Positions 21,310-57,421 of a DNA stretch of 64,000 bases are shown piece by piece. The notes under the pieces were generated by a model that was not told where the DNA came from, ran no database searches, and was given only the letters and a program-made list of their open reading frames with translations. The stretch's first letter is position 1. Each line of letters starts with the position of its first letter. This DNA comes from Xestospongia muta (lineage: Eukaryota; Porifera; Demospongiae; Haplosclerida; Petrosiidae): positions 8,551,461-8,615,460 of the forward strand of contig OY848919.1 in the NCBI GenBank assembly GCA_963693285.1. Reading direction: 5' to 3'. Position numbers and translations under genes: made by a program.

Positions 21310-22800
21310 TATTGCATGAACAAAAGAATAATAGCAGGGAAATTAAAATGTCTTCATATTGTTATAAATTACATGTTCAATAGCCGCTCAATATTTTAAA
21401 CCAACCTGTCATTTTGTATATCAAACAGGCTATAATACTATATATTGAAATGTTCACATTGTTCAACAATAAATAGAACCTCTCTTAAAATCATGAAACC
21501 ATGTTGTCCAAGACAAATATCTGTTATAAGAAATACTTGCACACTCTCTGAAATACAAAACCTTTTTATTTTGTTAGCAAATATTTTATGTTGTTAGAGA
21601 ATTGCCTCTCATAACAGAAAATGTGGGTGTGTCCAATTTTAAAAATGACATTGTTAAGCTAATCCTATACTCCTTTCCTGAACTTAGAGATCAATAAATG
21701 TATTGAATACTGCTGACTTGACTATTATCCTTGCCATTTATGGTTTAACTTTTAATGATGTCGTGAGAATAACATAGTTAATGTTATTGAATATTAAATT
21801 ATAAGAAAGATCAATTTTGTAATCTCAAGAATATCAATATCGTGTATTAACTTGAGACAATCTTTAATAAGACTCATAAGCTATCAAAGTTACTAGAGAT
21901 TCTATTGTTGTATGAGTTTCATAGCCATACATTTTGATTAAAGGCTGTTTCCATATTACACATGTAAAGCTTCCTTTTTTCTGTCTGGGAACTGCTTATA
22001 ATCATTTGGAGAATGTGTTAGCTATATATTTGCGTATCCATTTGCTTCATTTTATTCTTTGTTGTATGTGAAAATTGAAAGTGACAAATATTAATTAAAA
22101 TGTTTCCTTTAACTTTATATGCATATAACAACTAATGAATATTATTAATGCTAACTCTGAGTGCTATGAGGATGGATGGACTGATCATACTTAAAACATT
22201 TTACTATAATTTTTCTCTTCCTATGTTTTACAATGTATACCTATTGGTGTTTAAGTGAGATTGCTACTAGCTATCTGATGTTATAGCTCTAGTCAGTGTT
22301 TGACTATAAAGTCAATAACATTTACATAAATATAAGAGGATTTAATATTATAATTTTGTTTATAAATGGCAGCTTTATATAGATCTTAAGTCAAGTCTGT
22401 CAATGGTGATGGGCACATATGAGCCTACTTACTCAAAGATTTCAAGAACATTGCTTACTAACCATTTGCTATTTAAAATGTTTCCAACATTTGGTTAGTA
22501 GAACAGACACAAAACCTAATTAAGTGCTGATCTGTATTTCTTGTTTCATTTATTGGTAAAGATTTTTGGTTTATGTGAAGCAGATTATTCATTATATCTA
22601 ATAATTTATTGTAATTTAATCATCATCACAACAATTGCAAGACATAGTTTTATAGTTTTTTTGTCTCTTTGAGGATTATAATTTTTCAAACAGTGCAGTG
22701 AAATTTTGTAATATATTGCATTTTTAATACATACTAAAGTTGTGTTATTTTTATGATAGCTTTTATTATGACCTTAAATTATAGGTAATTATGACAACAT
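21310..22800. other. Long intron, no other gene recognised
   Basis: AT-rich sequence between two exons whose phase-1 boundaries match (donor at 21,299, acceptor at 22,814). It is unusually long for this locus. No transposon proteins are readable. Confidence 0.5.
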
Positions 22801-22814
22801 TATATTTAATGCAG

Positions 22815-32508: not shown

Positions 32509-34920
32509 TTATATCAATGTAGCCAATTTTATGTTTGATAGATCAGCTTCATATTGAATGGAACCATAATCTTCATATAACCTAAGTAGGCTCTCCCATG
32601 TTTTATCATACTTTAACAAAGTTGTGTTTCCTTAAAAATATAAAAATGGTCTTAATAACAGCTACATCATTTATACCAGCTACAGTCACAATAGCATTAT
32701 GTCTATAGATAATCACTTTCTTGTATGTGCATGTATAATGAAATGCCATATCTTTTTTCTATTTTGATGTTTCATATTCTGGCTGCTTATTAAATTTAAC
32801 ATGCAATAAAGTTACTACTTTTAGTTTAACAAATACTAATACTCTTACCTATAACAATTAAACCATGTTTAGCACGTGTAATTGCCACGTTAATTTGATG
32901 TTCATCAGTAACAAACCCAAGATTCTCTGTCATCCACTTGTGATCAGGTTGAACTAACTGACGATCTTTGATATCATTGATTGGCAATGACCGTACTGTT
33001 GTTAATATGACAATGTCATATTCATCACCTATGTATTAAGTGACAACGTTAATCAACATTTTGACAGGCACTGACCTTGGCTATCTGTGATGGTTGCAAC
33101 CTTAGGTTTTGTTTTTTCACTTCTGAGTTTTGAATTTTTCCCCATTAAGTCAATGATTAGCTCTTTCTGGGCCTTATAAGGAGTTAACACAGCCATACTT
33201 TTGTATGATACATTATATTGATTATGTAATTGTTGTATGACTTCCAGCTAAATAAATATATAGCTACAGTAAGTTACATACAAAATACCAACTTACAACT
33301 TTCCAAGCTTCACTGTTGTTTGATTTTGAATGAATATCAACCTTTCCTGTGAACTGTTGACCACTAGCGTTAGAGTCTTCTACAATATCATAAACAATAA
33401 TAGGAGACTTCGATTGCCAAAATTTATCAATATTATCACTCAAAGGACGTCGATCCTTTACAGCTTTATCAGTCCATAGTTTGTTTTTATAGAAAAGTTC
33501 TGAAGGTGGGCGACAAATCATCTCATGCTATATAATAAAAAATTAGCATCTTGTCTTGTTTTTTATATATTTTTATTTTACAGTATTTTAAAATCTTTAA
33601 TTTGCCTTAACTTAAGGTCACATCATCAATATACAAGTTTCTTAGTGGTATAAATGTCAGTCCAACAACTCACCATTCGATACTGTTTATTTAAAGTTAT
33701 CATCATGCCTTGTCTTGATTCTGCATATCTTTCAAAGAGGGAAATTCCCATTCCACACTCTCTAGCCATGTGATATTTGATAATTGGCTGAAGTTGTTTA
33801 TGATCTCCAATAAGTACAACATGATCACATAGACTGGCTGCTGCAATAGTCTCAGGTTCACTAGCCATGCCACACTCATCTATAATGCATTGTGCTATTC
33901 TTCCCATCTCTGCTAACTTGAGTAGTCTTTTGCTACATGTTTCATTACATGTACACAGAATGATATCATGATGATGACTTATCAGCTCTTCATACTCAGC
34001 AACTTTGATAGCGCTTTTGTACCTAGATATATATGTATATACAATCAACATAATTTAGTTTACTTTAAAATACTACCTTTCTTTTTCATATGAAGAGGGA
34101 ATAATATCCATTTTTTCAACAAGTTCTTTATTTTTTAGTCTCATCTCCTCAATTTCTCTGTTGGTTTGTCGTATTTTAAAATGTAATGCATCATCTCTCA
34201 ATTCAGGTAAACAACGACTATCAGTATCTTCTTGCTTGGGGTGATCTTCAATTTCTGTTTGCTGTAATGCATCATGGCATGGATCAGGATGGTCTACTTT
34301 CTCATGAGCACGGCCGTAAAGGCGAATAATTTGAAGCTGTTGACTTTTGGGAAACATAAGATCATTCAATTGTCTTAGTTGCTCTATTTTTAAGATAGTT
34401 GTATAAATAAAGATTTACTAGATACCTGTACTTACTGTGAACAACATCAACTGCTTTATTTGAAGGACAGCAATAAAGAACACAATTTCTTGAGCTAGCA
34501 TTTATTTTTGAAAAAATGTATGCTAAGTGTGCTCCTACAACACTTTTACCAGTTCCTGTATTAAAGGAACATATAATAACAATAATATTACTGTCTTACC
34601 TGGTGGTCCTTGAATTAACTGGAATTTATTTTTAAGTCCAAGATGTATTGCTTGTTTTTGTGCCTCATTTAGAGAAACATTGCTTCCATCCCAAAGTTTT
34701 AGAGCTAAAACATCATGATGAAGGTTTAATTGGTCAGTATTATCTAAAGGATGTTTCAATTGAATTTTATTGTGTAATATGATTAAAGAGCTGACCTACG
34801 ATTGGAGAAAGAATGTGACTTAAACCTATTGCAATTTCATCAGCCAGCATTGACCACCATAGATTTACAGTAGGATCTTGCAATTCACTAGAACGACATT
34901 GCAGACGTTTGAAGACTCGA
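32509..34920 (-). CDS. Exons 16-24: SF1 helicase module C and C terminus
   Basis: Exons are 34,920-34,796, 34,743-34,600, 34,555-34,436, 34,383-34,077, 34,022-33,674, 33,527-33,297, 33,247-33,076, 33,028-32,849 and 32,630-32,509. Motif Q/I is [17 protein letters not shown] then QGPPG, with GTGKS completed across the intron 34,556-34,599. A charged coiled segment follows ([20 protein letters not shown]). Motif II is [14 protein letters not shown] at about residue 3434, with [14 protein letters not shown] after it. LNKQYRM is motif [22 protein letters not shown] is motif V and [15 protein letters not shown] is motif VI. This is closer to UPF1/HELZ2 C-terminal helicases than A and B are, and has a different intron pattern. 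Confidence 0.8.
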
Positions 34921-37900
34921 CTGCAAAAAATCTAAATTTAAGTCATAGTTCAAATTGCTTACCTAAAAGAAACTAGCATTTCAATAATTTGTATTTCACA
35001 TAATGGCTGCAGATCCAAGTATGGCTTTAGCTCTTGTGATATCCAACAATGACTTCCCATTGCCTTCATCTCTAGCAAAACAGTCTTAGTAGTAGCATTC
35101 ATCCTTTCCTGATACTTCTTTCTGGTGACAACAAAATGAAATACTGCTGTGAGGTCCTTGTTCTGATCAGTTATATCATATCGAGCACATACTAAGTCAC
35201 CTGTCTTGATTTTAATGAAGTCAAAAATATGAAGTTTATTTGATGGAATCTCAAGAGTCAACTGGCCATCTGGTTCATAATGTATATCATCTATACAATT
35301 ACTTACAAGAAATAGTTTTGGCCATTTCAAATTAGCGTTTTTGATTAGTGTAATAACTCGAGTGTTAATCCCCACATAGGCAGCTTCAGCAACTAACACC
35401 TTACTCCATAACTCAATGTATTCATAAATAGAATGATAACTTTCACGAGATGCTTGTTGTAAATGAACCTCACAAAAGCACTCCACTGGATTCTGGTTGT
35501 GTTGTATGCAAACTCTAAAAGTTGGTGCTATTTCCAATAGATGTAGTTCAGGAGATGGCAGTGCTTGCTTAAATGATTTCCCTAACCACACATTAATAAC
35601 TTCGTCAGTCTGGAAAGTCCTTGCAATGTTATATATCACTATAGGGCTTCTTGTAAATTCTGAATTTAGTAAATGACTCTGCTTTTGTTTTTTATGAGGT
35701 AAATCAGGAAGCTTCTTTATTAAGCTAGAAATTATTTCACGGGAAGGTGATTTCAGACATTGATGTGCTAAATCCCACAGATCTGAATACACTTCAATTG
35801 TATTACTAATGACAGAAGCATTGTATTTAACACACTTCATTTGCTTTTGTGTATATTCTAATGACTGAGAAATATAGTGAAATACACTTGCTTGAATATG
35901 ACAGTAACTTCTGCCCCTTGTTACTAGTGATTCTTGACTATTAGTAAAGTTAGCCACTCGAGGATCATTAAGTAAGTCATTAGGGCTATTATCTAATGAA
36001 GCTAATACAATGTGCCATTTTGGCTCATTTTCATTATCATATCGGTTTATGTTTAGGTCAGAATATTCAAACTCAGTATTTTCATCAAACATGACATTAT
36101 AACTGGATAAAGGAATATGCAGCTGATAGACTTGATCCTTCACCCTTGGAAAAGGTTGAGATACAAATGCTTCCATTTTGATTAAAGCAGTTTCACAGTC
36201 CCTTGCTAAACGAGCTTTATGCATGCTTTGCTCATATCTATCAGCTAATTTTCCTTTTAAGTTTAGGTGACAACATATATCTTGAAGCTCTTTGTGTGTG
36301 TAGGAGATAACATCTTTATCGAGTAATGCTAAAACTAGTCTTTGCACTAATATGTCAAAATAACATTGGATTGGAGAAGTGAAATGAGTATATACATGAA
36401 CATTTAGGCTATCATGTGCAAAAACACAGATGTTTTCCTCTTTTAGAGTCTCATCAAATTTAGCAGAAACATATTCAGATCGTTGGACAATCTTTTTTAA
36501 TACAACTTCTGCTCTACTCAATTGTGGATACAAATTATTATTCGATAATGCCCAAAGGATACTTTTTTGGTGACAATTTTCATAGGCCTTCTTTATTAAG
36601 TGAATTACAGAACCTGTAACGATCAATGGCCTGGGAAGCATATTTTCCACTACAGAATACTTTTTAAGTGCCAAAGAGTAGTCCAGAGTTTCTTGAAAGA
36701 TGTTTCTAAATTTAGATAAGTTTCCTGCAAGAGGTGGTAGTTGTCTACATAGAAGAGGCATTTGCCTCAGGTTTTGGCTCAAATATTCAGCTATCCTCAA
36801 ATTAGCCCAAATCATAATTTCTGTAACAAGGAAATGGGACTGCCAACAGTCATGGTGGTCCCCAGCTGAGTCTAATACTCCATAGGACTCTATTAGTAAT
36901 CGTTTTTCTCGTAAAAATATTGCAATTTTATAGAGTAATTTTAGTGTATCAGCAATACCCATTCCACCTGTCTTTGCATTAAAGTCAATCAAGTGTTTTA
37001 TAATTTCATCATCTTCAATTGGTTTATCATCTAATACGTCCTGAACTACTTTGTATGTTAAACAAGCTTGTGATGTAACATGTGCCTTTTCAGGATCATT
37101 ACACACTATTTCATTTATCTCTCCATCCTTTAATACTATAGTAGCTGTTACTGCTAATACATCATGAGTTGTATTGTAATTGAGACTGAAGATTTGTGTT
37201 GCTAACTTCTGTGGTAACATATGAATAGCACTGTCACCCCCATAAGCAGATGTTCCTCTTTTTTTGGCTATTTTGTCAAGTTGACAATCTTTGGGAATGT
37301 ACTTGGCTACATTGGTAATAAGTACAGCTAATCTGTAAGTACTACCTTCTTGTAGAGGAACTAAGCTAATAGCATCATCAATAATAGTTTGATTTGGAAA
37401 ATCTATAGTAAATGCCTGATCATAATGTAGACCAACGTGTTCTTCTGGTGATATTTGAAATGGTGTAATGGTAAACTCATTGTCATCACTTTCTTCAATA
37501 TCATGTACAATTCTGAAAAGTCTTTCAGTAAAAAAAAGGCTTGAAGTAAAAGGCAATACTTCAACTACAGCTCCTAGTGGCTTCCAATACTTTGGTGACC
37601 ATCCAAGAATTTGGACAACAAATAAAAGATTTTGTGACACATCAGATGGAATCAATTCTTTAATTTGAGGAAGTTGGTCTGACTGCAAAGATGACATTTT
37701 GAAAATGGTAATGTAATCAGTAGGCATGTAATCTTGATATTGTAATTGCTCTTTTGAAATTTTGGGCAAGTTAACAATAGCAGGAACTGATTTATCCAAG
37801 GGATAAAAGTATATCACGTTATATCGGTCAGCTCTACAAATGTACTTGGTTGGATGCCTTGCTTCTTTTAAAAATACAACTTTTCCACACTCTTTATCAT

Positions 37901-40900
37901 CCTGTGTGGAAAACACATGAATACCAACTATATCCCCATCAAATGCACCCCTTCTGTGATTAAATCCATTAATTATGATTGGCTTAGTACGCTTTGACAT
38001 ATCAAGAGGAATAGCTTCAGCAAGGTGCTGATTTTTAATGGATAATTCACATATGATTCCTTTCTCTTCACAACTAGTATCTTTGTGATGGGTCTCAATT
38101 TCATTAATCTTGACAATTCCCCACCTGCTTTCTTTCTGTACCTGTGAAATCTGAAGTTTACAGTTTTTGTATTGTGGTATTTCCTGGATTGTCTTTTGAT
38201 ATGATTTTAAGATGCTATCTTTTGTTATTAATTGCATGTCACTTTTAAAGTCACTTGGTGTAAAGATATCTCTTTGTAGATCTTTTAAAGACTCACATAG
38301 ATCTTCTAAATTTCTAGACTCTGTGGTTGTTACATAAAATGTTTTAGATAAAACACATCTCCTAATGTATTCCTTCCAACTAAAACAATGCTTGTCTATT
38401 TCTTTTTCTATCTTCATTAAAAGAAAAGGATTACCAGCACACACTACAAGAGATTTAGCACGTGTTAGAGCAGTGTTAAAGACATATCGACTACATGGAG
38501 TCTTAGTACGGTTTGTAGACATCCCATCAGTTGTTAGGGGCTCAGCTGTACTCAAAAATACTGCTTCAAATTCACGACCTGAATATGTGATGTTAAAACT
38601 GACTGCATAAAACTACAAGTATAAATCACCTTGAATATCAAATATTGGCAGTACTTCAACTGATTTTAGTTCTCTGTATTCATTTCTAAGTTTTTTAATG
38701 AAATGAGATTTCTATATAAGATATAACATAGTAGCATATAAATAGAGAGTGTACTTCATTACCTGATAGGCTGTTGATGCCATTATACAGACTTCTTTGA
38801 GAACTGTTTCCCCCCATCCTTGTCTCTGCCGGTATTCATCAAGATGTTTCAAAAGCAAATCAGCTTCATAATGATAACGCTGGTCATCTTTTTCTTTCAA
38901 AACACCTTTGTCTAAGCTTGAACATAAAAAATGAAGTGGATATTCAGCTTCAAGATGTGAACATTTAGCAGCTGTTATCAATGATGAGTCATAAAACAGG
39001 TAGGAAGGTAATGAAAGCAATGCATGACTACATCGATAATTAGTGATAAGTGTAGCAATGTGTGTCATTGAAATGTCTGTGAGACATTCTGTATAGGTTA
39101 AGTGTAATCTTTCAAGAAGTGATATCTTCAGGTCATGTTTCATTGCTAATTCACCCAAAACAAGTACAGAAGGACCAACCTACAGATAAAAAAATTGATT
39201 TATTGGATTAAAGGAAGTACTGCAATTAGCTTACTTGTTTGTGGTCTCCTGCTATTACAATCTTAGTATTCCAATTGGCAAGGCACAATGGAGCTATTGA
39301 TTCTGGTTCCCGAGATTGTGCACCTTCATCAAGTAGAATGTGAGTGAAAAAACCGTTTTGAACACGATCAATGAGGTGAAGGGAGGTTAAAAATGTTGTG
39401 ACAACCAAGTGAGTCCTTTGAAGTTCATGGTTGAAAAGATTCCTAGCTGTACAATAATAAATATTATACTCTGGATTGGCCTTATAATTCTCATTAGGAA
39501 TAAGACGTAGGGGTTTTGGACACCATCCTTTTTCATACATTTTTCCAAAATAACTTTCAATAAATGTGTCAGCAGAGGTTTGATGATGGGCACAGATAAG
39601 CACACGTGAATTACAATCATGTTGGAGAATTTGGTAGGCTGTTCGAGCCAATAGTCGAGTTTTACCAGTTCCAAAAGAACCAATGACTAAAACAGGAGCT
39701 GTACAAGATTTACAATTCATTATGGTCTTTAATGCCTTATTTTGACATTTATCAAGATGTATTAAGTTAGGAAGAGAAGCAATTGGTTTGAGTGGTTTGT
39801 CGATGACAGACATATGTGTAAAGTCTTCCACAGCTACTGGTATAACCCTATTCAAAACCTCTAATGGTAATTTATCAATGGCTTTATGAAGATTTTCAAA
39901 GTAAGACCATTTAAGTGTGAAACTCACAAATATGGAGTTGCCCAGGTCAAGTTGTTCTTCCTTGATTCTAAAATTATGTACAGTTATCTTGGATATTTCT
40001 TCTTCAGTAAATGCTATCAATAACGCATCCACACCCCATTTCTTTGGAATATTTCCAGTCACTATGTCTGCTTTAACTGCTCCAAATGATAAATGCAAAT
40101 TAACACTCCCTCTGTCTGCACTAGATTGCTTAGCATATGATACTTTGTCACTATTAAGTGTATCACCAGAGATGATACCAAATCGTACATGGTCTTTTTC
40201 ATATGGATCTTTAAGCCAATCAATTACAAAGCCAGGTTTTAAGATAGTCACAGTGTATTGGCCATCACATCTAAAAGTAACAGATTATAAATAATACCAA
40301 TGTTGAGTATTTACAGTATTCACAACCTTTTAGAAAGAACACGATCATGTTCTTCTTCTTCTTGACATAACAGCTGATGAAATTTTGCCCTGTAGTTTTC
40401 TCTACTAAGAAGATCTTCCAACAATTCTTTATCTAAAGTTCTGTGTACATGTTTAAATGCCTTCCCTTGTAAAGCATTGATTGATGGTCGTATGAAAATA
40501 TGCTGTTCTGTTTCCTTTTGCACATGCAATGAAGTTGATAGTTTGTCTTCAAGAGTCTGCAAAAAGAGTAAATTCTACAATAAAATTAAAATTGATTTAT
40601 GAATGCCTTTTAAATGCTTTATGTTTAGTTTCATGAAACCTATCAGGCACATGATCTGGCTTGTCTTACAGTGCCTTGTTTTTGCGTAAGGAAAGTTTAT
40701 CAACTATCTAACTTGTGTGTAGTTTTAAAACTTCAATGAAACAAACTTGAAATGAAGAAAATGTTCTTCAAATTCAGTGGTTTCATTTTTATATTGGAAA
40801 AGATATTTTACAGAAACTTTGTAAGAATATGTACTTATTTACTTACAACAGTACGAGCAGTTTGTATTGACTTAAATCTAGAAGGCAATGCTTGTCTTGC

Positions 40901-43900
40901 AGGTATACGGTTTATTGTAACTTCTTTAATCTTTGGCTCTTCCATTACTAACTCTTTCTTTTCTTCACAAAATGGTACAAAGTTCATTGGTGTCGTCTTA
41001 CTCATCTTGTCAGTAAATACATTGTCTGAGTTCAATTTGACTTTTTTACGACTTCTATTTTTTGGTTTACTAGACAGCATGGCTGCTTTTCCTAACATCT
41101 TAGTGTTGGCTGGAGTAGATGGAAAAGGACTAGCAGCATTTTCAGATAATAAATATCCTTCATTTGATGAGTCCATTCTAGAAAGGGGTTGCGTGGCAAG
41201 TGGCTTTGCACCAAGTTTATCATCACCTTGAAATAAAGTCATTATGTCTGTAAAGTAAAATACAATTTAAATATGTAACTGTCAATTAAATATTTACCTG
41301 ATGTCTGTCGGCTCTTTAGCAACTTTTGAAATAGGTTTTCAATTTTGTCCGAGAGACTTTCAAAAGCATGTGGAATGATAAAAGTGTCTTCATTCAGACA
41401 CCTTGTGATGAATTCTCTCCAACACCATTTCGGTTCATTCATTGTACCTTCAGACATCATTAAAACTATTGGATTGCCAACAGCAACAACAAGAGATTTG
41501 GATCTTGTAATAGCTGTGTTAAAAACAGCAGGATGACAGAAACTTTTGACAACATCAAAAGGTCTTCCTGAAGGTTCTAGACCTTCCACAGTACTAATAA
41601 AAAGTAGTGAGTATTCCTGACCTACAAATAAGTCAAAAAAATAAAACTTAATTGCACATACCTTGCATTTGAAAGCTAGTACAAACTTTGACACCTCTCA
41701 AACAAGTGTTTTCACTTGATTTATATATTTCTCTATGTATCACATTTGCCTTTAGTAGGAAAAAATGTCTATCAAAACTTTTAATGTTATATTGTAACCA
41801 TACCTGGTTTAAACTGGCTGTCATGATACAAACATCATTAGTGCACCATTCTTTATATTTCAACAATTCTTTTACTTCATGAAGAATCAATAGTGCTTCG
41901 TTTAAACTTTCTGGAGAAGTAGGAATACTATTATCAAAACTAGAGCAAATAAACATGAGAGGATACTGAATGGAAGAACAACACTTTGTATCACCACAAG
42001 ACTCTAAGGCAGAATCATAGAACAACGTTGAAGGCAGTTCTAATAGTTCAGCTTGGCAACGATAGTTGCAGTTCAATGACACTATGTATTGAACAGCTGG
42101 TTCACCAAAATGTTGGTATTGTTTGTGTAATCTCTGCAGTAGAGACACTCCTAAACCATATCTTTGAGGCTCATCACCTAATACTACAAGTTTGGGACCC
42201 ACCTAAGCAAACAAATTAATAATAAAAGTTAATACTGTACACATACCATACCTGTTGACTGTCACCAGCTATTATAATACGAGTATGTTTATTTGCCATT
42301 ATAAGTGGTGCAATAGTCTCAGGTTCTCTTGTTTGTGCTCCTTCATCAATAAGAATATAGTTGAAATATTCTTTAGCAAATTCAGACATCCACAATGCAA
42401 GACCACATGTAACAACAACAATGACGTGTTTCTTGCTTTGGTAGGAATGAAAAGACTTTTTAAAACTATTGACAGTTATAAAACAAGTGGTATTTTTCAG
42501 AGCAGCTAAGCGTTGCTTAGTGGTTACACGAACAACTTCAACATCTAATGGATTTTGTGGATTTAGAAAATAATCATTCATGAAGATGTCTGCTGAATCT
42601 TGCTGATAACAGCAAATGAGAACATGACTATCATTTTTGTTCTCTTTGCTATAACGGATAATTTCTTGAGCAGCAACAGCTAAAAGACGAGTCTTGCCAG
42701 ATCCAAATGGACCAGGAATTAAAACAGGAGCTGATGATTGACTAAATAGCATTGTCTGCAGACCACGGAATTGGTCTTTATCCAATTTTAGTTGAGGGAA
42801 TCTTGTTTTTGGAATTGGTCTAAGATGCAAGCCTTCATCAAAGTCTTCTCGAATGGGAATTATTCTTCTCAAGGCTTCATCAGATATTTTAAAAATTATG
42901 TCATTCAAATTTTGAAAATAGGAGTGGTCTACTTCAAATTTTACATCAACACTCAATTTATGGGGAAATACGCTAGAGTGACTCACATTCAAACCAATAT
43001 AGAGTGAGTCAATAGATGTGTCACGGTTGCACTTCAATAACGTAGCCTTGTATACGACTTGAGGCTCATCACAAGGTGTGATAATTGCATGATTACTTGC
43101 CTGCAAAGCATATGTTATCTGACTTGCGCTCATTCCCTCAAGATAAGCATATGAACTGTAGTATTCAAAAGTTTTTTTGGATGGAATATGTTGTCGGTGA
43201 ATATAAGCAAGTTTGTATTTGCCATCACACCTATAGTTAATAAAAAGAGCTCAAATAAACAACAATAACTTACTTCCTGTGAAGAACTTGACCATGTTCT
43301 ATTTCTTCATAGTACAGTAATGCTGAAAATTTCCTCCTGTAGTTTTTTAAATTGACAGGTATTGTCATGTCATTTTTGGGTGGAGGTTTTTTATGCTTTT
43401 TCATTGATAAATCCTTTTGTAGAGTTTCTTGAACTTCTTGGCTAGTTTTGGCTTGTGTCTTGTAAGTTTTATCCTATAATAACAAAAATTGAATATACAT
43501 GTAGACAAAACTCTAAGCTTTTAACAAGATATCATATTATTCTTGAGATATTTTAAATTACTACATACCAGTTTTGTTGAAACAGATTTAGGCTCATTAA
43601 CAATTTTAGTGATTTGTACCGGAGGTTTCACTATAAAAAAAAGTATCAATAAATAACTACCTTATTAACAGTAAATTTTAAACTTTTATTGTGATCTAAA
43701 CCTTGTTCAAGACCATGCATTTTAACTTTCTCAATACTATTATGTCAGCCTTAAACATTATAATTTTAATAACAATTTATAAAATTTGTTCTTACTAGAA
43801 CTTCGAGGTTGATATTGAGATGAACTTCCACTTTGTACATCTTTGAGAGCATTTTCAGTTGTAAGATATGTTTCCCTGACATAGTTTTCAGCAACAATAT

Positions 43901-46900: not shown

Positions 46901-49900
46901 GAAAGAGTTGGAAAAACTACAGAGTGTGGGAGTAATCAAGACAGTTGCCACATCAGGCTGGGCAGCACCAATAGTGCCTGTGGTTAAAAGAGATCATTTG
47001 ATTAGAGTGTGTGGAGATTACAAACTGACTATTAATCAAACTAGTAACACAGAAACTTACCCTCTACCTCGTATAGAGGAAATATTTGCATCACTTTCAG
47101 GTGGTAAAACTTTTACAAAGTTGGATTTGCAGAATGTGTACCAACAGCTGTAGTTAGAGAAGAGTCAAGAACTGGTAACAATAAACACACACAGGAGGTT
47201 GTTCCAACATACATGGCTACCCTTCGGGATAGCTTCTGCACCGGCAATTTTCCAAAGAACTATGGAAACAGTGTTACAAGGCCTTCCAGGTGTATGTGTA
47301 CACTTGGACGACATTCTAGTTACAGGAGCATCTGAAAAGGAGCACTTGGAGCACCTGAAATTAGTGTTGCAGAGATTGGAGGATGTTTGTTTGTGGCTAA
47401 AGAGAAGTAAATGTCAGTTTATGGTGTCTCACATAGAGTACCTTGGCCATCACATTGACCAAGAAGGATTACATCCAACAGCTGGACGATACAAGTGATC
47501 CAGAAAGCTCCAGCTCCAACTAACAAGACTCAGCTCAAAGCATTTCTCGGTTTGATAAATTATTATTGCAAATTTTTACCTCATTTGTCTTCTAGGTTGT
47601 CACTGCTCTATTTGTTGCTCAGGAAGAACAGTCGGTGGTATTGGACTAAAGCACAAGAGAATGCATTTCAAGCTGTCAAGTCCGGATTGTCTTCAGATCT
47701 TTTGTTAGTTCATTTTGACCCAAACAAGAAGATTGTTTTGATCTGTGATGCCTTACCATATGGGGTGGGGGCGGTCCTATCTCATCTCATGAATGATGGC
47801 ACAGAACATCCAATTTCTTTTGTCTCTAGGACATTGTCACAGGCAAAGTGTAACTATGCTCCTATAGAGAAGGAAGGATTATGGTAGCTGTCATCCCCAA
47901 AAAACTAAATTTGAACATATCATCACCCCACTGGCACCTGAATTTGCACAGGAATTTTAAGACTACATCCTATCTCCACCAACCGATTCGTACTATGATG
48001 TCCTAAAAAATCAAATTGTACAACGTATTGCCACTTTGGAGCAACATCAACTTCAACAGGTATTTAATTCTGAAAAGCTTGGAGATCATAACCCAACACA
48101 GTTACTTAAAAAAGGCAGTGGTACTGATCCCTTATTCTTATGTAAGTTATTTTTACAGTGATTACCTTCTAATGTACGCATGGTACTTGCCTCCACTAAT
48201 GTGACTAATTTCGATGTATTGCACAACTGGCTGATCAAATTATGGAAGTAGCCTAATCTTGAATTTCAAATGTTACTGCTTCCACTGAAGTAGAGCAATT
48301 AAGGGCAAAGAGAGAAGATCTCAAGAGAATAGTACACCCACTGCTCACCCCCAAACTACAACATCAGTACCGATCACCCTCTCGGCAACAATCACAAGGA
48401 TCACTTCGCCATCTATACCAAATAAAGAGATGTGGTGGTATCATTGATTTGGAAGTTCAGCACCCAAATGTCAACCACCTTGCAATATGTCGGGAAACAT
48501 GCAGGCCAGCCACTAGTAGCAGTGAGTGTTACTGGCCAATCTCAAAGTCGTTTATTTTATATTACAGATCATAACAGTGGATTTCACCTGCAAGAAGATA
48601 CTTGTGCAGAAGTAAGTGTAGTTCCATCTAGAAATACTGAACACAAACACCAACATGATGGATTTACACTACAAGCAGTTAATTACACTCCAATCAAGAC
48701 TTATGACATTCGGCTTATCACACTCAATTTCAACCTCCGTTGAACATTTTGATGGCCCTTCATTTCAGCAGATGTCCATAAGCCAGTCATTGGTGCTGAC
48801 CTTCGCAGGCACTTCAATCTGCTAGTAGATATGCATCACAAAAGATTAGTAGATGCTGTCATACAACTCAAAGTGCAGGGTATTTCTTCTTAGTACACAT
48901 CTATGAAATTAGTTTGGCAATTAACTAAACCCAAGACTGAATTTGAAACTGGACTCACTGAGTTCCCTTCTATTACTCAGCTGAACACACATGACCATCC
49001 AATTAAACATGATGTGACTCAACACATCAAAACCAATGGCCCACCAGTACACTCAGAAGCACGTCGATTTTCCCCTGAGAAACCTAAAATTGCTCATCAA
49101 GAGTTTGAACATATGCTACAACTGGGTAATCATCCAACATTCATCTAGCAACTGATCCTCATATCTTTATATGGTTCCCAAAAAAACACCGGGGGATCGG
49201 ACCCCTTGTGGAGGTTACAGAGATCTCAATAATGTAACAATTCTCGACCGTTATCCCATCCCTCACATTCACAATTTTTCTCTGCTAACTTACATGGATC
49301 TACTATATTTTCTTAAATTGATCTTGTCAAAGCTTACTACCAAATACCAGTACACCCAGATGATACACCCAAAACTGCAATTACCACCCCCTTTGGTCTA
49401 TTTGAATTTACTCATATGACCTTTGGCCTCGAAAACGCAGCATAAACGTTTCAAAGGTTCTTTGATCAGGTCTTTCAAGGACTTCACTTTACATATGCTT
49501 ATATTGATGATGAACTTATACCTAGCCACTCTTGTGAAGAACTTTTACCATTACGTTGAAGGACGTACCTTTTACATTGCCACTGATCATAAACCCCTAA
49601 CCTTCTCTTTACCAATGAACACAAACAAATGCTTGCCACGACAAATCTGACAACTCAATTTCATCTCAAAATTTACTTATGATATTAAACATATCAGTGG
49701 TAGTAACTAGCCAGTAGCTGATGTACTCTTTCGACTACAGATACAAGCAATCCAGCAAAGTCCTTCAATGATAGACTTTGCAGCAATGGCAATCTCCCAA
49801 CAACCTGATCATGAAGTCCAAGCAATACAGTCATCATGCTCTTCATCCCTCAAATTTGCTGATATCTCTATTGAAGGCACAGAGACTACTTTAGTTTGTG

Positions 49901-52900
49901 ATACTTCAACTGGTATACTCTGATCATATGTACCTAAAGGTTTCTGATAACAAGCTTTTGAGTTATTACATTTACTTTCTCATTCGGGTATACGTGCAAC
50001 ACAATATCTGGTTAATTCATCTTACATTTGGCCAAATATGAATATAGATGTCAGGAAATGGACACGTTCCTGTGTACAGTGTCAAAGAGCTAAAGTGCAA
50101 CAACACACAGTATCTCCTCATTTTACATTCACTATTCCAGATGCTTGATTTGATTACATTCATATTGATACACTTGGACCATTACCCCCTTCTAATGGTT
50201 ATTTATAAATACTTACTTGTATTGACAGGTTCACACATTGGATACAGGCCCTGTCCTTAGTCGATATTACAGGTGCAACAATCCCCAGAACATTCATAAA
50301 TGGATGGATTTCAAGTTTTGGAACATCTTCCACTATCACAATTAACCATGGTCAACAATTTGAGTCCATCCTTTAAAAACATCTCATGGTACTATTGGGT
50401 TCTGGTTGGATATGTACTACAGCTTACCATCCTATTTCAAATGATATGGTTGAACGTTTCCACAGACAGTTCAAAACAATGTTTAAACATAGGCATATCT
50501 AGGTCTCTAAAAGTACTAGTGCTCATTAATTATTCATCATTATTAGTTAGTAGTTATTAATAGTTATTGTCAATATTTAACCTTTACTCAACCAAAAACA
50601 AGTTCATTTAAAAAGAAGGGTTATCTTAGAATTGTTGTGTTTACAAGCAAACTTTATGATGAGCTCATCCAGACAATCACATAGATGAGATGACAGGCTT
50701 CTTTCTATTGACAGTAATGCTAAACTATCCAACCTTTCCTGAGACATAGTGGAACACAAGTACATCTTAATGCGACGAAAAGATGAAAAACTGCATTCAG
50801 TTGCAGTAGAGGTACCAAAAGTCATTGCTACCATTAAGCACTCTCTCAGAAGTGGAAATGCTTCCTTTTCAAGGTCTATGTGCTCCAAAGGGTAACCAGT
50901 GTCCTTTTTGTCCTCAGGAATTGGGTTTCTTACAAGAAAATTTCGGAAAGTCATAATTTCATTCTGTAAATTGCCAGTGGGAAGACTTTCGTGGTATTGA
51001 TCAAGAAGTGGAATAAAGGAGTCAGCTTTAAGATAATTCTTTGACTTGGGATTCACACAATTGATTGATTTTATCAAAGATGTGTTGATGTCACTAAATC
51101 TGTCCCTCATTTCTGTGAGAATCACATCAATAGTGGGGAAGTATACATCTACTTTGTAGCTATCACTTGATGCTGAATTTGAAGTAGTGCTACTGCCTTA
51201 TTGTCTTAGTTGTCATTACATAGTCATTCATTGCAGCAGTAGGTTGCCTCTGTTGTCTTCTTCTAGGAGTAACTATCTTTATTTCATGGTGTCTAGCAAA
51301 GGCAATAGCTTCTTCCCGGAGCAGATTCCATACATCATCAGTACGCAAGCTATCAAAGGTGTCAATTGTTGCTTGGATAAGGCTAGCAACACTCCCAAGG
51401 TCTAGTGAATCCTTTTGGAGTGAATCTGAAAGATTAGCAGATATCCCCATTACCTTTTTAAAGATTGTAAGGCTGACTACAAACCTGAACGTCTTTACCC
51501 CAGACAGAATTCCACTGGCTTCAACAGTCCTGTTTCTGTCCGAACCATTGACTGTTTCTTTAAGAGTTTCAAGAATTGATGAATAGATTGCCATGAATGC
51601 CACAATTGAATCATAGCAACAAGACCATCTGTTATCAGACAGTTTCTTCAATCTAATCTCCCTACCACCACTAGCCTTCTGAATTGAAAGGAAGCGTTCA
51701 TGACATTTAGATGCAGTGAATAACACATATAATGCTTGCAAAAGAGTGAAAAAGTCAGAAGCCTCTCTAACATGTTTTGCCACATCTACTAACACAAGAT
51801 TCAGTCTATGAGCAGAGCAGTGGACATAAATGGCTTGAGGACACTTTTTCTTCAACAAGATTTGAACTCCTGAGTTACAGCCACTGATGACAGAGGCACT
51901 GTCATAACTCTGTGAAACCAGATAATTAAGGTCAAGACTAAAGTCAGATATTTTCTGAAGGATATAATCAGCAAGTGCTCTAGCTGCTAGTTCAGAAGCT
52001 AAGATGTAACCACTGAACCTCTCTACAATTTTAAAACCATGGACACACCTGAAGGTAATAGACAACCATTCCCTTTTGCTTGTATCTTTTGTTTCGTCAG
52101 CTAAGACTGTGAAATAGTTAGCTTCATGGATCTCTTTTTGATGTATTCTTGAACTTCATTTGCAAGGAAGTGGACAATTTCATTTTGAAGACTTGGTAAA
52201 GCCATGTAGCACTTTTGCTGTGGTGTTTAAACGATCTCTGACTTGTTGGCAATGTCGAGAGATGAGCATCATCAGTGACTTCAAGTTTCCTGGATTTAGT
52301 GCATTGTTACCTTCATCCTGTCCACGAAAGGCTATTCCATGTTGTGAACAGTACAGAATACAACACTCCATCAACGCAACTGTATACTTTCTGTTTTGAC
52401 AGATGACTTCTGTACCCATTTGATCCAGCTGTTCACCAATTGATTGTCCTGTCACCACTTTCTTCTGGTATTCCTTCCAAGCTGTCATGGGATTAATTAC
52501 TAAGTGTGAAGTTATACATGTGGACTGGGATGTGTTAGTGGTTAATCTTTGTGTAATAAACAGATTATGAATTTCATTTTGGTTAAAGTACAAAACCAAT
52601 GAATTTACTTTTGAAAAAAAAATAATTAATTTTTGTCTGGGTAAGTTTACCTAGGCAAAGCCCATACTGCCCCTGGTCTAAATACGCCTATGCATTTAAA
52701 GTATACCCTAATTCAAATCAGTGGACTGAAGGTCTACCAATTATTAACCTTGCTATGTGTGGGTTCATAGCAAGGGTACTGTAGTCTGTGTGTGTGTGTC
52801 TGCATTGCCTGTTACTGGGGATTGTTTTTGAATTGCTATAACTTGGCAAGCAAAGTGTTAGCAGCTACCAATGTTAAGCAACGAATATAAAAAATTGTTG

Positions 52901-55900
52901 TCTTTACAACAGTAGTAGTGGGTTTCTCGAAAGTAAAAAACTTAATGTGGAAATTTTAAAGTGTGTTCAAACAATCTTAGAGGAATATGCATCAGCAAGA
53001 CAGAAGGCCATTGGGCGAAGCAATCGTCATAAAAGTTCTGAAAAGTGTTTTCAAGACTGTATATGGACTTGGAGTGTAGTAACACATTCAGAAAATGTCT
53101 CAAAGCACTGAAAATCTGCTACTAATATAATATATTGATTTATATTTTTACTACGAGACGTTTATAAAGAACTTTTCATCTTCAAGTTACAATAAATTTT
53201 GTATATGAAATATTGATAAATGTGACCACGCCTTCTAGAATGTTAATAAATTTTCTTGCAATGCTACCTAGCAATATCATAGCTGGGCCTAAGCTGGCAT
53301 AGCATTTATAAATAACTTAGAAACTGCAGCGAGGCTCAGCACTGTAGTGCTTTTTTATTCTACTTGGCATCAGAGGTGCTGCTAAGAAGGACTTAGCCAG
53401 TTCTGCAGCCAAAATGGTTTATGGTACTACTCTTTGTCTACCAGGAGCATTTTTCAACCCACAAGCAAATGAAAACCTTGATTTAATTAATTATATACCA
53501 AATCTAAAAAAACTTATTAAAAACCTCCAAACAGTTCCTCCTCGCTCCAATCAACATCAACCGGTACATTTTCCTTCTTATCTCCTTGTTTTAGTTTGTC
53601 ATGATGACGTACAGAAACCGTTACAACCCCCATATGACAGCCCATATAGAATCTTTTAGTTGTACAAACAAACATTTTGCAAACTCAGTATCCACTATGT
53701 TACTAATTATTATTCAATACTAATTTTTGGTATCACATGATATAATAAAAAGTATAAGTTATCAGTTTGTCTAGGGGAAAATGAAGCATGTCTTTGTAGT
53801 TAATTTGCACCTCTTCAGACTGTGCAGTTGCAGTAGTAGTGAGTCATAATATTAGCTACAATAGCACAGAACTAACTACACTATGAAAGCATTTATTGTG
53901 AGGATTTAGACTTTAAATCATTATAGGTGCATGTGGGTGCAGTTTCTAGCTGTTTTGTGGATGTGTGCCCATTTAATAACTTTATTAATTCTCATATGAA
54001 ATGTTGTTGTCTGGGTTGATCTTGTTAAAGCTTATTTGACTTTGTAGATTTAATCTGAGTTTTATTAGAGACCATGAGTAAGTAGGGAAATTCCTTTCAA
54101 AAGGCCACTACATTAAATTTTAGTGGTATTGTAAGCTGAACGTAATTCCATTAATAACTACACAAATGTGTAACAATAACTCAGTCCATCTTGTGGATAC
54201 CTGATGTCCTCATAATATTTCTTTGTAATGGCACCCTATTTTTTCTATCTTAGTGATGTCTGTCAACTTTGTCATTTGTTATAAGAAAGAAGTAAAAAAT
54301 ATTTTTATGTCAGAAATTTGATATAAATTCTTTGTTTTTATTATTAACATATATTTTACCACATGCATTTAGGTGATTAGGTAACAAGATATAACTAGAA
54401 TTTATAGAATCTATTTGTACAACTTGGGTATTGTGTTGCCTCCAGACCCTTTGTTCCTATAACGAGGAGGTTGGGTATAAATAGCCCCTGGCCAGGGCAA
54501 GTTAATTATTTATTTTTCTTCTTCACGTGTGAAAGTTACTCTTCACTATAGCACTTGTAAGTCCTAAATAGTAGATCTGTGTGCTTATAAAAGTATTTAT
54601 CAGGTGTAAAGGATGTCAAATTTGTGTCTTTTCATTTGAAAAACTAAAATTGCCATTTCTGGTGAGACTTGTCCTCCCAAGAAGAAGCATGTGAGACATA
54701 AAGTTCACTACCAAATGCAGCTGAATTTCTTGAGTGAGGCTGACAAAAAGAACTTTCTTTGATAACTAGAATTAGTGAAGTTGTCGTCAAAGGAGTCATG
54801 ACCACTCGATAGTCATGAGCTCCTTGGATTGTTATTGGACTTGGCGGGTGTGGGTGATGATGGTGACAATGAGACAGTCAATGAAAGTAGTGGTGGACTT
54901 CAGAGGGATATTGTTAAGCCAATGTTGGAATATTCAGGTAATATCTAATGACAAGGAATGACTGGCAATATTTAAGACATTATAGGGTATTTTACTGGTG
55001 GTGATGATGAAGACAATCAGTTGTTGTTTGTTTGTGAGCAAAAAAAAATTCATGAACATGAACTTGTAGTAGGACTGACGCAACCATGTGATTGTCGCGT
55101 GGGCGACATCATCTATAGTTCAATTACAATGGCTTCATGTGTATTATAAGATATTTGTGATTTTGTGACTTGTAGATTGGACATATACTACAAGTTGAAT
55201 TTCAATGTCAGACTTGTTGATCTAAGCAATGGTGGGCCAGTTCAAGAGTATTTGGAGGGTGTTACTTGGTCAACCAAAAGTTAGTTCTCATTAAAAAGTT
55301 ATAACAATCAATGTTTTCGTGTACTTTCACATGTGCTGGAATTATACCTAGCCAGTACATTAACTTAAACTGCTTTTCAGGCATTGGAACTGTTGGCAAG
55401 TTGTACATTAGATCATGTATATTACATAATAAACTACAAGTCTAGTGATTGTCTGGATTTAGTTTATAAATCACAAATATATATAGAAGTCGTTAGACGC
55501 TGTGCTGAGCAGTCTATGATGAAAGCAATCAATGAAATTAAAGACCTACCAGAGTATTCAGCAAATGGAGAGGTATTGTTGATATAATGTAATTGTTTTG
55601 ACAACTCTCACAAGTTTGGTTACTGTGTGTCATAACTGATACATTACATGACTCAACAGCTAACTCTTACCACACAACTGTACCTTGCTTTCAGGAAGCT
55701 TATATTAAGCATTGCTGCTATAGCTTTATGATATATTGGTATAGTACTCAGAGGATCATTAGCTGTGTGACTCTGTCAAGGAAGGAGCATGCTGTAGCCC
55801 AAATAAGGGAATTGGAAGCTACAAAAATTGTTGTTCCCGAAGTTAATGAAAAAGGTACTCCTTCAAATTATAACAGCAAACAATTCAATAACTATTCTTT

Positions 55901-57421
55901 AGGACTGAACGTGGTTGAAGTAGCTCATGATAATTGTTTTTCTGTGAAAACATTTATCATTGATGACCTCAACATAGTCAACTCTTTCGATACGTGGCAT
56001 GATGAGATATACTTTACAAGGCCATACACTTTCAACATTCCTCAGGTACTAAAAACGTTGCTAAAGCTATGAAACCAATTGCTTGTGGAGCAGTAAAGAA
56101 AGCAGGACTAACTTGGTTTCCATAATTAGCTGATAAAAGTTAGTTCATATGATAATGTATTTATTGTGTTTATGGATGCTTAGGAAACAGCACAAAGGTT
56201 CATTTGTATTATTGTATGAAGAATTGTGCCCAGTCTGGTGACTTTTCGTCAGAACATCTTCAATATCATACAACATTATCAGGTTACTCTTATTCATATT
56301 TATTTAACATCACATATTGTACAGGATGAACATTCCAAATGCCACGAAGAGTCAGCTTGTAAACGTCCTGGACACTGTCCCAGTAAGATCAAGTTAACAA
56401 CACCAGCTGCAATTATAGTATATGAGATGTTGAAGGGGACAGTAATTTACAGAAAAGTTGACTCTTACTGTAGAGTAAGTACACATATTGTCCTGGTCTC
56501 TATTTATAACTTGCTTTATATAATGTCGTGACACTTACTGGGTAGAGTCCTTTAATCACCATGTACTGACATATATACCAAAGAAAATGCAGATGGAGGG
56601 CTCTATTGATACTCTATATCAACCTAACCTTTTTTTCATGAATGTATGTGTTAAAAAACTAAGTTGCTAACCTTTAATTTTGTTTGGTAGGAACCATTTG
56701 CTACCATGCTTTTTTTTGGTTTATAATGAACACGTGGTGTTAAATATACTGAGCTTGTAAAAAAGGCGTAGTCATGCTGATAAACACAAAAGTCTACTGA
56801 CAGTATTGAAGCCATTTTCATTTTGATTATACCCGCCATTTTGTGCTCTGGGCACACCCCTTTTAAATACTCCTAGAGGAAGCATTCAGAATATTGCAAC
56901 ATGATACACATTTACGGTTTATACCTGACCTTCTCCTTTAAGTAACAGTCAGGTTCACAAGAATAATGGCACACATATTCACATATACATACACACGTGA
57001 TCAAAATGATTGTTAGGACTGTCTGGCTTACAATGCAAAATGAATATGTATTGTATTGAAAGTAATGTCACATACCTGCTTTAGTAGCCTCACGAAATAA
57101 TTTAGCCATCACATCACTACTGACAATTGCTGCTGGTCCACCAAGGTCTTCAAGAATTTCAATAAAACATTTGCAGTGTCTTTTTATCTCAGAAACACTA
57201 GTTCTTAACTCCAATCCAGTTTTAAAATCGTTATAGATACTAGTAAAATTTTTCTCTTTCATGACCTGATTGGATATTAACTTTGCTTCAAACGCTTTTT
57301 CAGCAAGTTGTGTGATACATCCCTCCGTTGCTGAGCTAAGTTTGGCATAGTAGGAGGTAAAAACGTCAACAACAGCCTTCCTATAGTCTCTTAGACTGCT
57401 AGCTTCACAGGTCACGGCCAT
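32509..57421 (-). CDS. Death-fold/Death domain, triple SF1 helicase, RNB protein (HELZ2-like), 24 exons
   Basis: The minus-strand gene starts at ATG 57,421 (in-frame TGA 27 bases upstream) and ends at TAA 32,509-32,511. All 24 exons join with GT-AG sites and matching phases to give 11,217 nt, about 3,738 residues, with no internal stop. Order with approximate residues: death-fold 1-115; Death domain 117-215; conserved unknown region 220-545; helicase A 566-1228; linker 1229-1362; helicase B 1363-2000; RNB 2335-2710; conserved tail to 3155; helicase C 3156-3738. Helicase-RNB-helicase is the HELZ2 arrangement. Extra here are helicase A and the N-terminal death-fold modules. Expected role (inference): cytoplasmic RNA unwinding or degradation coupled to death-fold signalling. 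Main uncertainty: exon 1 is joined across a 12-kb intron on phase and domain logic only. Confidence 0.75.
36250..37420 (-). CDS. RNB (RNase II/R-type) module within exon 15
   Basis: Exon 15 (38,578-34,963, 3,616 bp) holds after helicase B an OB-like region ([18 protein letters not shown]) and then an RNB domain starting [20 protein letters not shown]. It continues with [39 protein letters not shown] and [23 protein letters not shown] enzymes degrade RNA 3' to 5'. In the canonical D-x5-D-x-D-D cluster, the second Asp is Ile here, and the SPIRRY-type motif reads SPIQCY. Other signature residues are kept. Activity may be lost or altered. The rest of exon 15 (to 34,963) is a conserved HELZ2-like tail without a named domain. 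Confidence 0.75.
38400..40556 (-). CDS. Exons 11-15 start: SF1 helicase module B
   Basis: Exons are 40,556-40,327, 40,270-39,235, 39,179-38,763, 38,711-38,630 and the start of the large exon 15 at 38,578 (230, 1,036, 417 and 82 bp, then 3,616 bp). Lead-in is [20 protein letters not shown]. Motif I is [13 protein letters not shown] at about residue 1633. Motif II is [16 protein letters not shown] at about 1747, then [23 protein letters not shown] is motif IV-like. [14 protein letters not shown] is motif V, and [19 protein letters not shown] is motif VI at about 1980. Exon order, phases and lengths mirror module A, so B and A are internal duplicates. Confidence 0.8.
40847..41247 (-). CDS. Exon 10: linker between helicases A and B
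   Basis: One 401-bp exon reads [20 protein letters not shown], then a basic stretch [16 protein letters not shown]. It is low in hydrophobic residues, rich in Ser, Lys and Pro, and probably disordered. The basic cluster could be a nuclear-localisation or RNA-binding patch (inference). Confidence 0.7.
41298..43473 (-). CDS. Exons 5-9: SF1 helicase module A
   Basis: Exons are 43,473-43,274, 43,230-42,252, 42,202-41,804, 41,749-41,662 and 41,621-41,298 (200, 979, 399, 88 and 324 bp). The module opens with [16 protein letters not shown], similar to the lead-in of MOV10/HELZ-type helicases. Motif I is [12 protein letters not shown] at about residue 804. Motif II is [15 protein letters not shown] at about 925, followed by [10 protein letters not shown] (motif III). 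NCNYRC is motif IV-like. Motif V is [14 protein letters not shown]. Motif VI is [19 protein letters not shown] at about 1150. All catalytic motifs of a UPF1-like SF1 helicase appear present, so ATPase activity is plausible. Confidence 0.8.
43569..45130 (-). CDS. Exons 2-4: Death domain and conserved region of the helicase gene
   Basis: Exons are 45,130-44,056, 44,007-43,796 and 43,630-43,569. Exon 2 opens [20 protein letters not shown] and continues [20 protein letters not shown], then [20 protein letters not shown]. This is a Death domain (L-x-L, then LWxW, then TxxxLV). The rest (residues about 220-470) includes [15 protein letters not shown] and [13 protein letters not shown], a block that I associate with sponge Death-domain proteins but cannot name. 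Exon 3 adds [20 protein letters not shown], a helical segment that may be another death-fold remnant. Exon 4 is a 62-bp linker. Confidence 0.75.
45240..45530 (+). other. Possible 5' LTR/leader of gypsy element A
   Basis: Non-coding sequence between exon 2 of the helicase gene and the gag start. It contains GTAAATAAG and a stretch GTGGTCTCAGG that could border a primer-binding site. No second LTR copy exists in the window to confirm the limits. Confidence 0.3.
45534..47886 (+). mobile_element. Ty3/gypsy retrotransposon A, 3'-truncated and mutated
   Basis: Gag starts at ATG 45,534 ([20 protein letters not shown]) and ends in a nucleocapsid with two zinc knuckles, [13 protein letters not shown] and [14 protein letters not shown] (about 46,150-46,255). 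Protease has [10 protein letters not shown] (about 46,450). Reverse transcriptase runs about 46,800-47,500 with [21 protein letters not shown] and [10 protein letters not shown], where the usual first residue of Y-x-D-D is His. The start of RNase H reads [22 protein letters not shown] at 45,945 and TAG at 47,151 interrupt gag and pol, and a frameshift lies near 47,495. The sequence ends abruptly inside RNase H, where element B starts. No integrase remains. Confidence 0.9.
50488..52692 (-). mobile_element. hAT-family DNA transposon (ZMYM-like transposase), inserted in gypsy B
   Basis: The ends are CATAGGCATATCTAGG at 50,488 and, inverted, CATAGGCGTATTTAGA at 52,692 (14 of 18 positions match). 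They are flanked by TGTTTAAA and CATTTAAA, an 8-bp target duplication with two differences. Transposase pieces are on the minus strand. The N-terminal region is 52,599-52,180. The core is 52,065-51,190 ([20 protein letters not shown]). The C-terminal hAT dimerisation block is 51,125-50,604 ([20 protein letters not shown]). Frameshifts near 52,180 and 51,195 inactivate it. It resembles the zinc-finger MYM-type, DUF4371-containing hAT group. Confidence 0.85.
52756..53370. mobile_element. Second interruption of gypsy B integrase, unknown element
   Basis: Integrase similarity stops after LPIINLA (about 52,755) and restarts at [14 protein letters not shown] (about 53,365). The intervening roughly 600 bp contains a (GT)n tract at about 52,787 and no readable protein. 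Clear terminal inverted repeats were not found. A TA sits at each edge, so a TA-target element is possible. Confidence 0.45.
53660..54590. other. No gene recognised (intron 1 sequence)
   Basis: AT-rich; it may include the 3' LTR of element B, but no LTR pair is available to define it. Confidence 0.4.
54600..56620 (+). pseudogene. Decayed multi-exon gene of a transposase-like family
   Basis: Scattered plus-strand pieces share a style with uncharacterised, probably transposon-derived invertebrate proteins. They are about 54,690-54,960 ([20 protein letters not shown] and [20 protein letters not shown]), about 55,720-56,020 ([28 protein letters not shown]), about 56,055-56,130 ([20 protein letters not shown]), about 56,320-56,475 ([20 protein letters not shown]) and about 56,525-56,590 ([20 protein letters not shown]). 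A D-x-W-H-D/H block followed by a cysteine-rich segment suggests a DDE-type nuclease, but the family is not certain. Many stops are present. It lies antisense within intron 1 of the helicase gene. Confidence 0.4.
57076..57421 (-). CDS. Exon 1 of the helicase gene: N-terminal death-fold domain
   Basis: The frame starts ATG with [20 protein letters not shown] and includes [20 protein letters not shown] and [16 protein letters not shown], ending TKA. A GTATGT donor follows at 57,075 in phase 1. The helical pattern resembles CARD/DED-like domains at the start of sponge signalling proteins. The next compatible exon on this strand is at 45,130, which begins in phase 1 after TTTTGTTGTAG and continues directly into a Death domain. 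This is the natural partner, but exon 1 could instead belong to a gene lost to transposon insertion. Confidence 0.6.

Follow-up and report, generated by a model that had tools for sequence, protein, structure and literature searches.

Death-fold domains signal by self-assembly, and in the RIG-I-like receptors (RLRs), whose helicases belong to superfamily 2 (SF2), a death-fold front sits on an RNA helicase, a layout that suggests a sensor logic. A CCCH-type zinc finger is a feature of HELZ2, and the human protein is ordered as helicase 1, RNB and helicase 2. HELZ2 is known as an interferon-stimulated factor that degrades RNA, and the human protein lowers LINE-1 RNA, with its helicases mattering more than its RNase (PMC9839780). 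For sponges, a transcriptome contains two HELZ2-annotated genes with reduced expression in the symbiont treatment (PMC11229196), and Amphimedon has 357 NCOA6-clade TRADD-N proteins, most architectures of which consist of one to three Death-like domains, TRADD-N and variable ends (Kaur et al. 2021, PMC8195603). In cnidarians and brachiopods, TRADD-N is fused to Mov10, DDX60 and RLR-like proteins (PMC8195603). Here we describe a gene of the sponge Xestospongia muta, on the minus strand of a stretch of 64,000 nucleotides (GCA_963693285.1, contig OY848919.1, positions 8,551,461 to 8,615,460; the whole stretch is called the window), which appears to combine a death-fold front with a HELZ2-type body of superfamily 1 (SF1) helicases.

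The gene resembles human HELZ2 in the OB_HELZ2 fold and RNB domain placed between SF1 helicases, in the D..DD aspartates and in the C-terminal AAA_11/AAA_12 helicase, but it has two helicases before RNB, no CCCH string, a CARD-like/Death/TRADD-N-like front and the string SPIQCY in its RNB domain; it is not placed as a HELZ2 member. Unlike the SF2 helicases of the RLRs, its helicases are of the SF1 type (AAA_11/AAA_12) and accompanied by RNB. The front unit, one to three Death-like domains followed by a possible TRADD-N-like part, resembles that of the sponge NCOA6-clade proteins with Death-like domains and TRADD-N, with their large expansion and variable C-terminus, although the C-termini named in the section on these units are ankyrin, SH3-LRR, kinase, MATH, SH2, PDZ, caspase, PNPase and HD, with no HELZ2 helicase-RNB body among them (PMC8195603). 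The cnidarian and brachiopod fusions share the theme of an apoptotic adaptor on an RNA helicase, but they belong to the DEDD2-like TRADD-N clade and, in the passage on them, come without RNB or a third helicase (PMC8195603).

The gene runs from 57,421 to 32,509, and its 23 exons join to 11,271 nt, that is, 3,756 codons plus a stop in one frame, with GT-AG borders in all 22 introns (16 of them sized 40-56 nt) and the join of exon 1 to exon 2 in phase 1. The gene-finder output was hand-edited at several boundaries (the start of exon 2, exons 7/8 and exon 21). The original prediction, made from the letters of the window, had given the same start and end and a single joined frame, all of which hold, while its 24 exons and 3,738 codons differ from the counts above; no stop lies within the 3,756 codons. 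The coding score of the body (45,130-32,300, exon 1 being outside the scored region) equals 1631, compared with 17-69 for 10 block-shuffled copies, 30 and 8 for two plus-strand stretches and 0 for three other minus-strand stretches. As the coding model was trained on exons of the same gene, this score is inflated by self-training, of which the open frame and the homology evidence are independent. Rfam and tRNA scans gave no match.

Along the joined frame, the domain order is CARD-like, Death, DED-like, TRADD-N-like, helicase A, helicase B, OB_HELZ2, RNB and helicase C. Each of the three helicases contains strings that correspond to motifs I, II, III, V and VI, and the hidden Markov model check proposed earlier returned matches for Death, for RNB and, in A, B and C alike, for AAA_11 and AAA_12, so that the predicted HELZ2-like body of three readable helicase modules with RNB between B and C is recovered. 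The OB_HELZ2 match (29.0 bits) is just under the curated cut-off of 29.3. A DEAD match in the body reaches only 1.8e-5, under the cut-off, and with AAA_11 and AAA_12 both strong, the body does not read as SF2. On the strength of the joined frame and the domain order, both read from the sequence, we hold with moderate confidence that the helicase body and the death-fold adaptor front would form one gene.

Searching the genome (158 Mb, for paralogs and cassette copies alike) gave 15 RNB matches, of which 7 are HELZ2-like: the window gene, a twin, a paralog that we call C3b (C3:11,566,001-11,596,000) and four copies on C9. The family analysis covers these 7; of the other matches, C11 holds one, and C6 and C12 hold seven fragments. 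The twin (G000:C3:8,677,001-8,707,090), 95.6 kb away, is 98-99% identical to 29,911-58,891 of the window, intron 1 included, and differs from the window gene at 33 of 3,756 amino acids; it is either a recent segmental duplication or an uncollapsed haplotype. As a side observation, the C11 match (G000:C11:5,119,628-5,120,611) lies in a 985-codon open frame and, at 1.4e-100, is far stronger than the HELZ2-like copies; contamination or an RNase R/Dis3-type gene without introns could account for it.

In C3b, an exon-1 homolog (44% identity) stands 149 bp before the Death match (51%), the gap between the two exons being 137 bp in the gene model, and beyond the cassette that strand goes on to carry helicase A (68-74%), helicase B (57-72%), RNB (63%) and helicase C (39-75%). 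Because C3b pairs both front exons so closely before an equal body, exon 1 belongs to the gene despite its 12-kb distance across transposon remnants. The predicted membership of exon 1 is thereby supported by an independent paralog, and the idea of exon 1 as a separate gene is weakened. Genome-wide, the cassette has 53 strong exon-2 copies in dozens of places (two of them with a stop codon inside), and 33 of the 53 have an exon-1 copy at most 3 kb upstream on the same strand, compared with a mean of 0.11 by random placement, in a count that used 63 of 150 exon-1 rows. For 17 of the 53, no exon-1 row lies within 6 kb, and these include the window gene and the twin, which, with gaps of 12-13 kb between exons 1 and 2, are outside the 33 paired cassettes. 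Extra exons placed by the gene finder between 57,075 and 45,130 were set aside, as C3b is without them and several fall inside transposon remnants.

Within the cassette, the Death domain is the firm assignment (Pfam 2.2e-9, supported by the predicted fold too). Exon 1 has no Pfam match; its predicted structure (mean predicted local distance difference test, pLDDT, of 88.5) shows six helices, with CARDs as the best VIA-align matches and no significant Foldseek match, which suggests a CARD-like fold; the CARD-like and DED-like assignments are weaker than Death. The N-terminus carries one firm Death-superfamily domain and up to two further ones, and the death-fold front of the original prediction stands. 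The TRADD-N-like part shows the expected strand/helix order, in a model of low pLDDT, and a turn of a tiny residue plus C/S; it has no match to PF13820 in the window, nor to Pfam, nor to PDB sequences. Elsewhere in the genome, PF13820 touches four open reading frames (ORFs) weakly (E 0.4-0.6), one of which aligns with the DED-like part of the gene (1.8e-5, four sequences searched). Neither exon 2 nor the helicase A exon retrieved anything from the PDB sequences. None of the 98 listed genome matches to NACHT (102 of 155 candidates scored) falls in the window, and none was found in the gene pieces scanned. Separately, at G000:C1:10,204,002-10,209,140, a NACHT domain is preceded on its own strand, at a distance of 3.6 kb, by one Death cassette exon, so that the locus is possibly an NLR with a similar front.

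The least certain junction is that between the cassette and helicase A: the 323 nt from exon 3 to exon 5 are bridged by a 62-nt exon, the one-gene model outscores the two-gene model by only a modest margin under arbitrary penalties (Table 1), and similarity to C3b is not regained until about residue 596. Two genes or isoforms, namely a protein made of the cassette alone, terminated where exon 3 is read through (stop at about 43,745-43,760), and a three-helicase HELZ2-like protein starting from an ATG in exon 4/5, are possible, although we regard them as rather improbable. The split model is almost equal in score, conservation resumes near in-frame ATGs, and in the DNA downstream of L046 and L047 (about 4 kb each, both cassettes that were sampled) a coiled-coil-like stretch was read by eye and no enzyme was recognised in the predicted products. 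However, exons 3 and 5 are close together on a common strand in compatible phase, C3b has the equal order and was also joined by the gene finder, the CCCH-like motif of the four C9 models is missing in the window gene, the twin and C3b (no CCCH string in any of the three), and Death domains stand in front of three other helicase models. The latter, L045, L048 and C3up (upstream of C3b, L023-L024), are gene-finder models with a Death domain over the Pfam cut-off before a single helicase. Their helicases are MOV10/HELZ-like, and motif II of L045 reads DKAAQ. A Death-like front read by eye at L049 was dropped, having no Pfam support.

Helicase modules A and B are present in all 7 modelled HELZ2-like RNB loci; the third helicase that had been predicted is thus real but not special to this gene. 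In the tree, from which the twin was excluded, the helicase A modules, L048 and C3up among them, fall into a single clade of 8 rows and the helicase B modules into a separate one of 6 rows, each supported at 100/100; the three-helicase body therefore predates these duplications. A relative from another collection, P0195, has one helicase before RNB in its available part. The window gene and C3b group together by helicase A (100/98), helicase B (90/88) and RNB (100, in a tree that used 17 of the 120 listed outside relatives). Their cassettes as an exclusive clade were rejected (p 0.012; 81-row cassette tree), while a grouping with P0075 and P0085, named after seeing the tree, was not (p 0.66); a single fusion of cassette and body is compatible with the latter grouping and thus possible. 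A CCCH-like string lies close to the front in each of the four C9 models and also occurs in C3up and L048; scans of three pieces gave these strings no Pfam match above cut-off. As read from these gene models, the front end is swapped between paralogs, a CCCH-like string on the four C9 loci versus the death-fold cassette. Against C3b, the ratio of nonsynonymous to synonymous rates (dN/dS; estimated pairwise, with no test of significance) stays below 1 throughout the domains measured: exon 1 has 0.43, the Death exon has 0.30, and 13 of 14 high-scoring segment pairs chosen by place have 0.13-0.49 (the remaining one has saturated dS); between the window gene and the twin it equals 0.31.

The RNB alignment holds 126 rows, made up of 120 of 157 homologs and 6 models, with the window gene included, the twin excluded and several rows near-identical to models. 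In the SPI(RR)Y pair, R occupies the first position in 117 of the 126 rows and the second in 123. The window copy reads SPIQCY where relatives read SPIRRY, a change shared by the twin and by P0120 (98.9% identical to the window gene and probably the same gene); SPIRRY is kept in C3b and the four C9 copies. We take Arg500 of RNase II to be one of this arginine pair. The aspartate motif FTID...DDA is present in the window copy, with aspartates equivalent to D1346/D1354/D1355 as judged by the spacing of the human residues named in PMC9839780. The third aspartate position is I in the window copy, which alone says little, given N in 93 and D in 17 of the 126 rows; the other three of the four RNB aspartates are kept. 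Arg500 is important for the activity of RNase II and for RNA orientation (PMC3293843). Because the conserved SPIRRY arginines read QC, the RNA degradation that had been predicted is doubtful for the window copy, the exonuclease activity of which we infer may be weakened or lost; the C3b and C9 copies are not so judged. Ssd1-type RNase II pseudonucleases likewise have an RNB fold with altered catalytic residues and may bind RNA, but they are a fungal Dis3L2 lineage that lost the active-site signature, whereas the window copy lost the arginine pair and keeps three of four aspartates (PMC8097288).

The reading that we favour, with middling confidence, is that of an RNA sensor that nucleates death-fold assembly, of which all steps from RNA binding onward are those we infer beyond the sequence facts. 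The helicases would load onto foreign or aberrant RNA (viral or transposon), and the RNB fold of the window copy, without its arginine pair, would grip RNA rather than degrade it efficiently. ATP-driven clustering on RNA would gather the death-fold domains, which would nucleate a filament or recruit further Death/TRADD-N proteins of the large repertoire, with immune signalling or cell death as the outcome. The overall logic would be akin to that of RIG-I with its CARDs, here on an SF1 HELZ2 body. To hypothesize further, and only tentatively, this may be a second independent sensor of the death-fold plus RNA helicase kind, in which an SF1 HELZ2 body swapped its zinc-finger front for the CARD-Death-DED-TRADD-N cassette and RNB became an RNA clamp in the window copy, giving an inflammasome-like RNA receptor, while the zinc-finger paralogs would stay effectors.

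It seems unlikely that the product is instead a HELZ2-like RNA-degrading restriction factor against transposons or viruses, in which the death-fold unit merely localises or scaffolds, with no death signalling. Human HELZ2 lowers LINE-1 RNA, and the purified protein was compared with an RNase mutant in an exoribonuclease assay (PMC9839780); motifs are kept in all three helicases of the window gene, and SPIRRY is kept by C3b and the four C9 copies. However, the window copy, the twin and P0120 share SPIQCY at positions where nearly all rows have R, and the presence of Death fronts on several of the genome's helicase models suggests a signalling role. A non-functional or misassembled copy (decaying duplicate or uncollapsed haplotype), which the near-identical copy and the RNB active-site changes might suggest, is very improbable, given no stop across 3,756 codons in the window copy or the twin and the dN/dS values between the copies and against C3b.

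Table 1. Coordinates of the gene and of its parts in the window.
Feature	Position	Strand	Evidence or remark
Exon 1 (residues 1-115): start codon, CARD-like domain of six helices	57076..57421	-	
Intron 1, 11,945 nt, with hAT-type transposase remnant and retroelement remnant	45131..57075	-	Pfam matches
hAT-type transposase remnant in intron 1	50,607-52,155	-	DUF4371 and Dimer_Tnp_hAT
Retroelement remnant in intron 1	45,948-47,884	+	RT_RNaseH_2; gag-asp protease below cut-off
Exon 2: Death domain (~143-216), DED-like helical part, TRADD-N-like part (~369-474)	44056..45130	-	
Exons 3-5, cassette-helicase A linker	43274..44007	-	Least certain junction; one-gene score 1631.1, two-gene 1605.8
Helicase module A (SF1)	41298..43344	-	AAA_11 1.8e-15, AAA_12 8e-8; motif places
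Exon 9, helicase A-B linker	40847..41247	-	Highest dN/dS against twin: 0.80 on 8 changes
Helicase module B (SF1), lower bound approximate	38300..40556	-	AAA_11 3.9e-17, AAA_12 5.7e-15
Exon 14: helicase B end, OB_HELZ2 fold, RNB domain, post-RNB region	34963..38578	-	RNB 5.5e-47; OB_HELZ2 9.3e-7
Exon 14 active-site strings	Aspartate motif at 37,412-37,371; SPIQCY within 36,386-36,339	-	
Helicase module C (GPPGTGKS, DECGM, GDHKQ, QYRM, AITRA) and stop codon	32509..34920	-	AAA_11 2.3e-40, AAA_12 1.3e-46

Elsewhere in the window, degenerate tandem repeats with units of 38-39 bp fill about 5 kb at 9,820-14,730, with a G+C content of about 52% at 10-14 kb (window mean 35%); they leave long open frames of up to 413 codons on both strands, two of which were scanned without a Pfam match. 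On the plus strand, the open frame at 19,565-20,155 matches reverse transcriptase (RVT_1 5.6e-7), and a 510-codon open frame at 22,778-24,307 has a COR-A match (1.2e-6, under the curated cut-off) and is possibly a ROCO-type gene.

No description of the full domain order, or of a death-fold cassette on a HELZ2-like body, was found among the papers listed by the literature searches, supplementary tables being outside them. The original prediction, which knew of no described protein with this full order, stands for the order itself among those papers; to say that it has no described kin is too strong, because the front resembles a known sponge module (PMC8195603) and occurs in dozens of places in the genome. 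The theme of an adaptor with an RNA helicase is thus already known, while a three-helicase and RNB HELZ2 body under such a cassette is not named in the cited passages. Related loci of one genome with zinc-finger-like and death-domain fronts represent a domain swap made by nature, in which RNA handling and signalling come apart. Two ideas become testable: that RNA detection was linked to death-fold assembly in early animals by proteins outside the RIG-I family, and that a copy without the RNB arginines has turned from an effector into a sensor. In this sponge, the detection of RNA may feed into immune or cell-death signalling.
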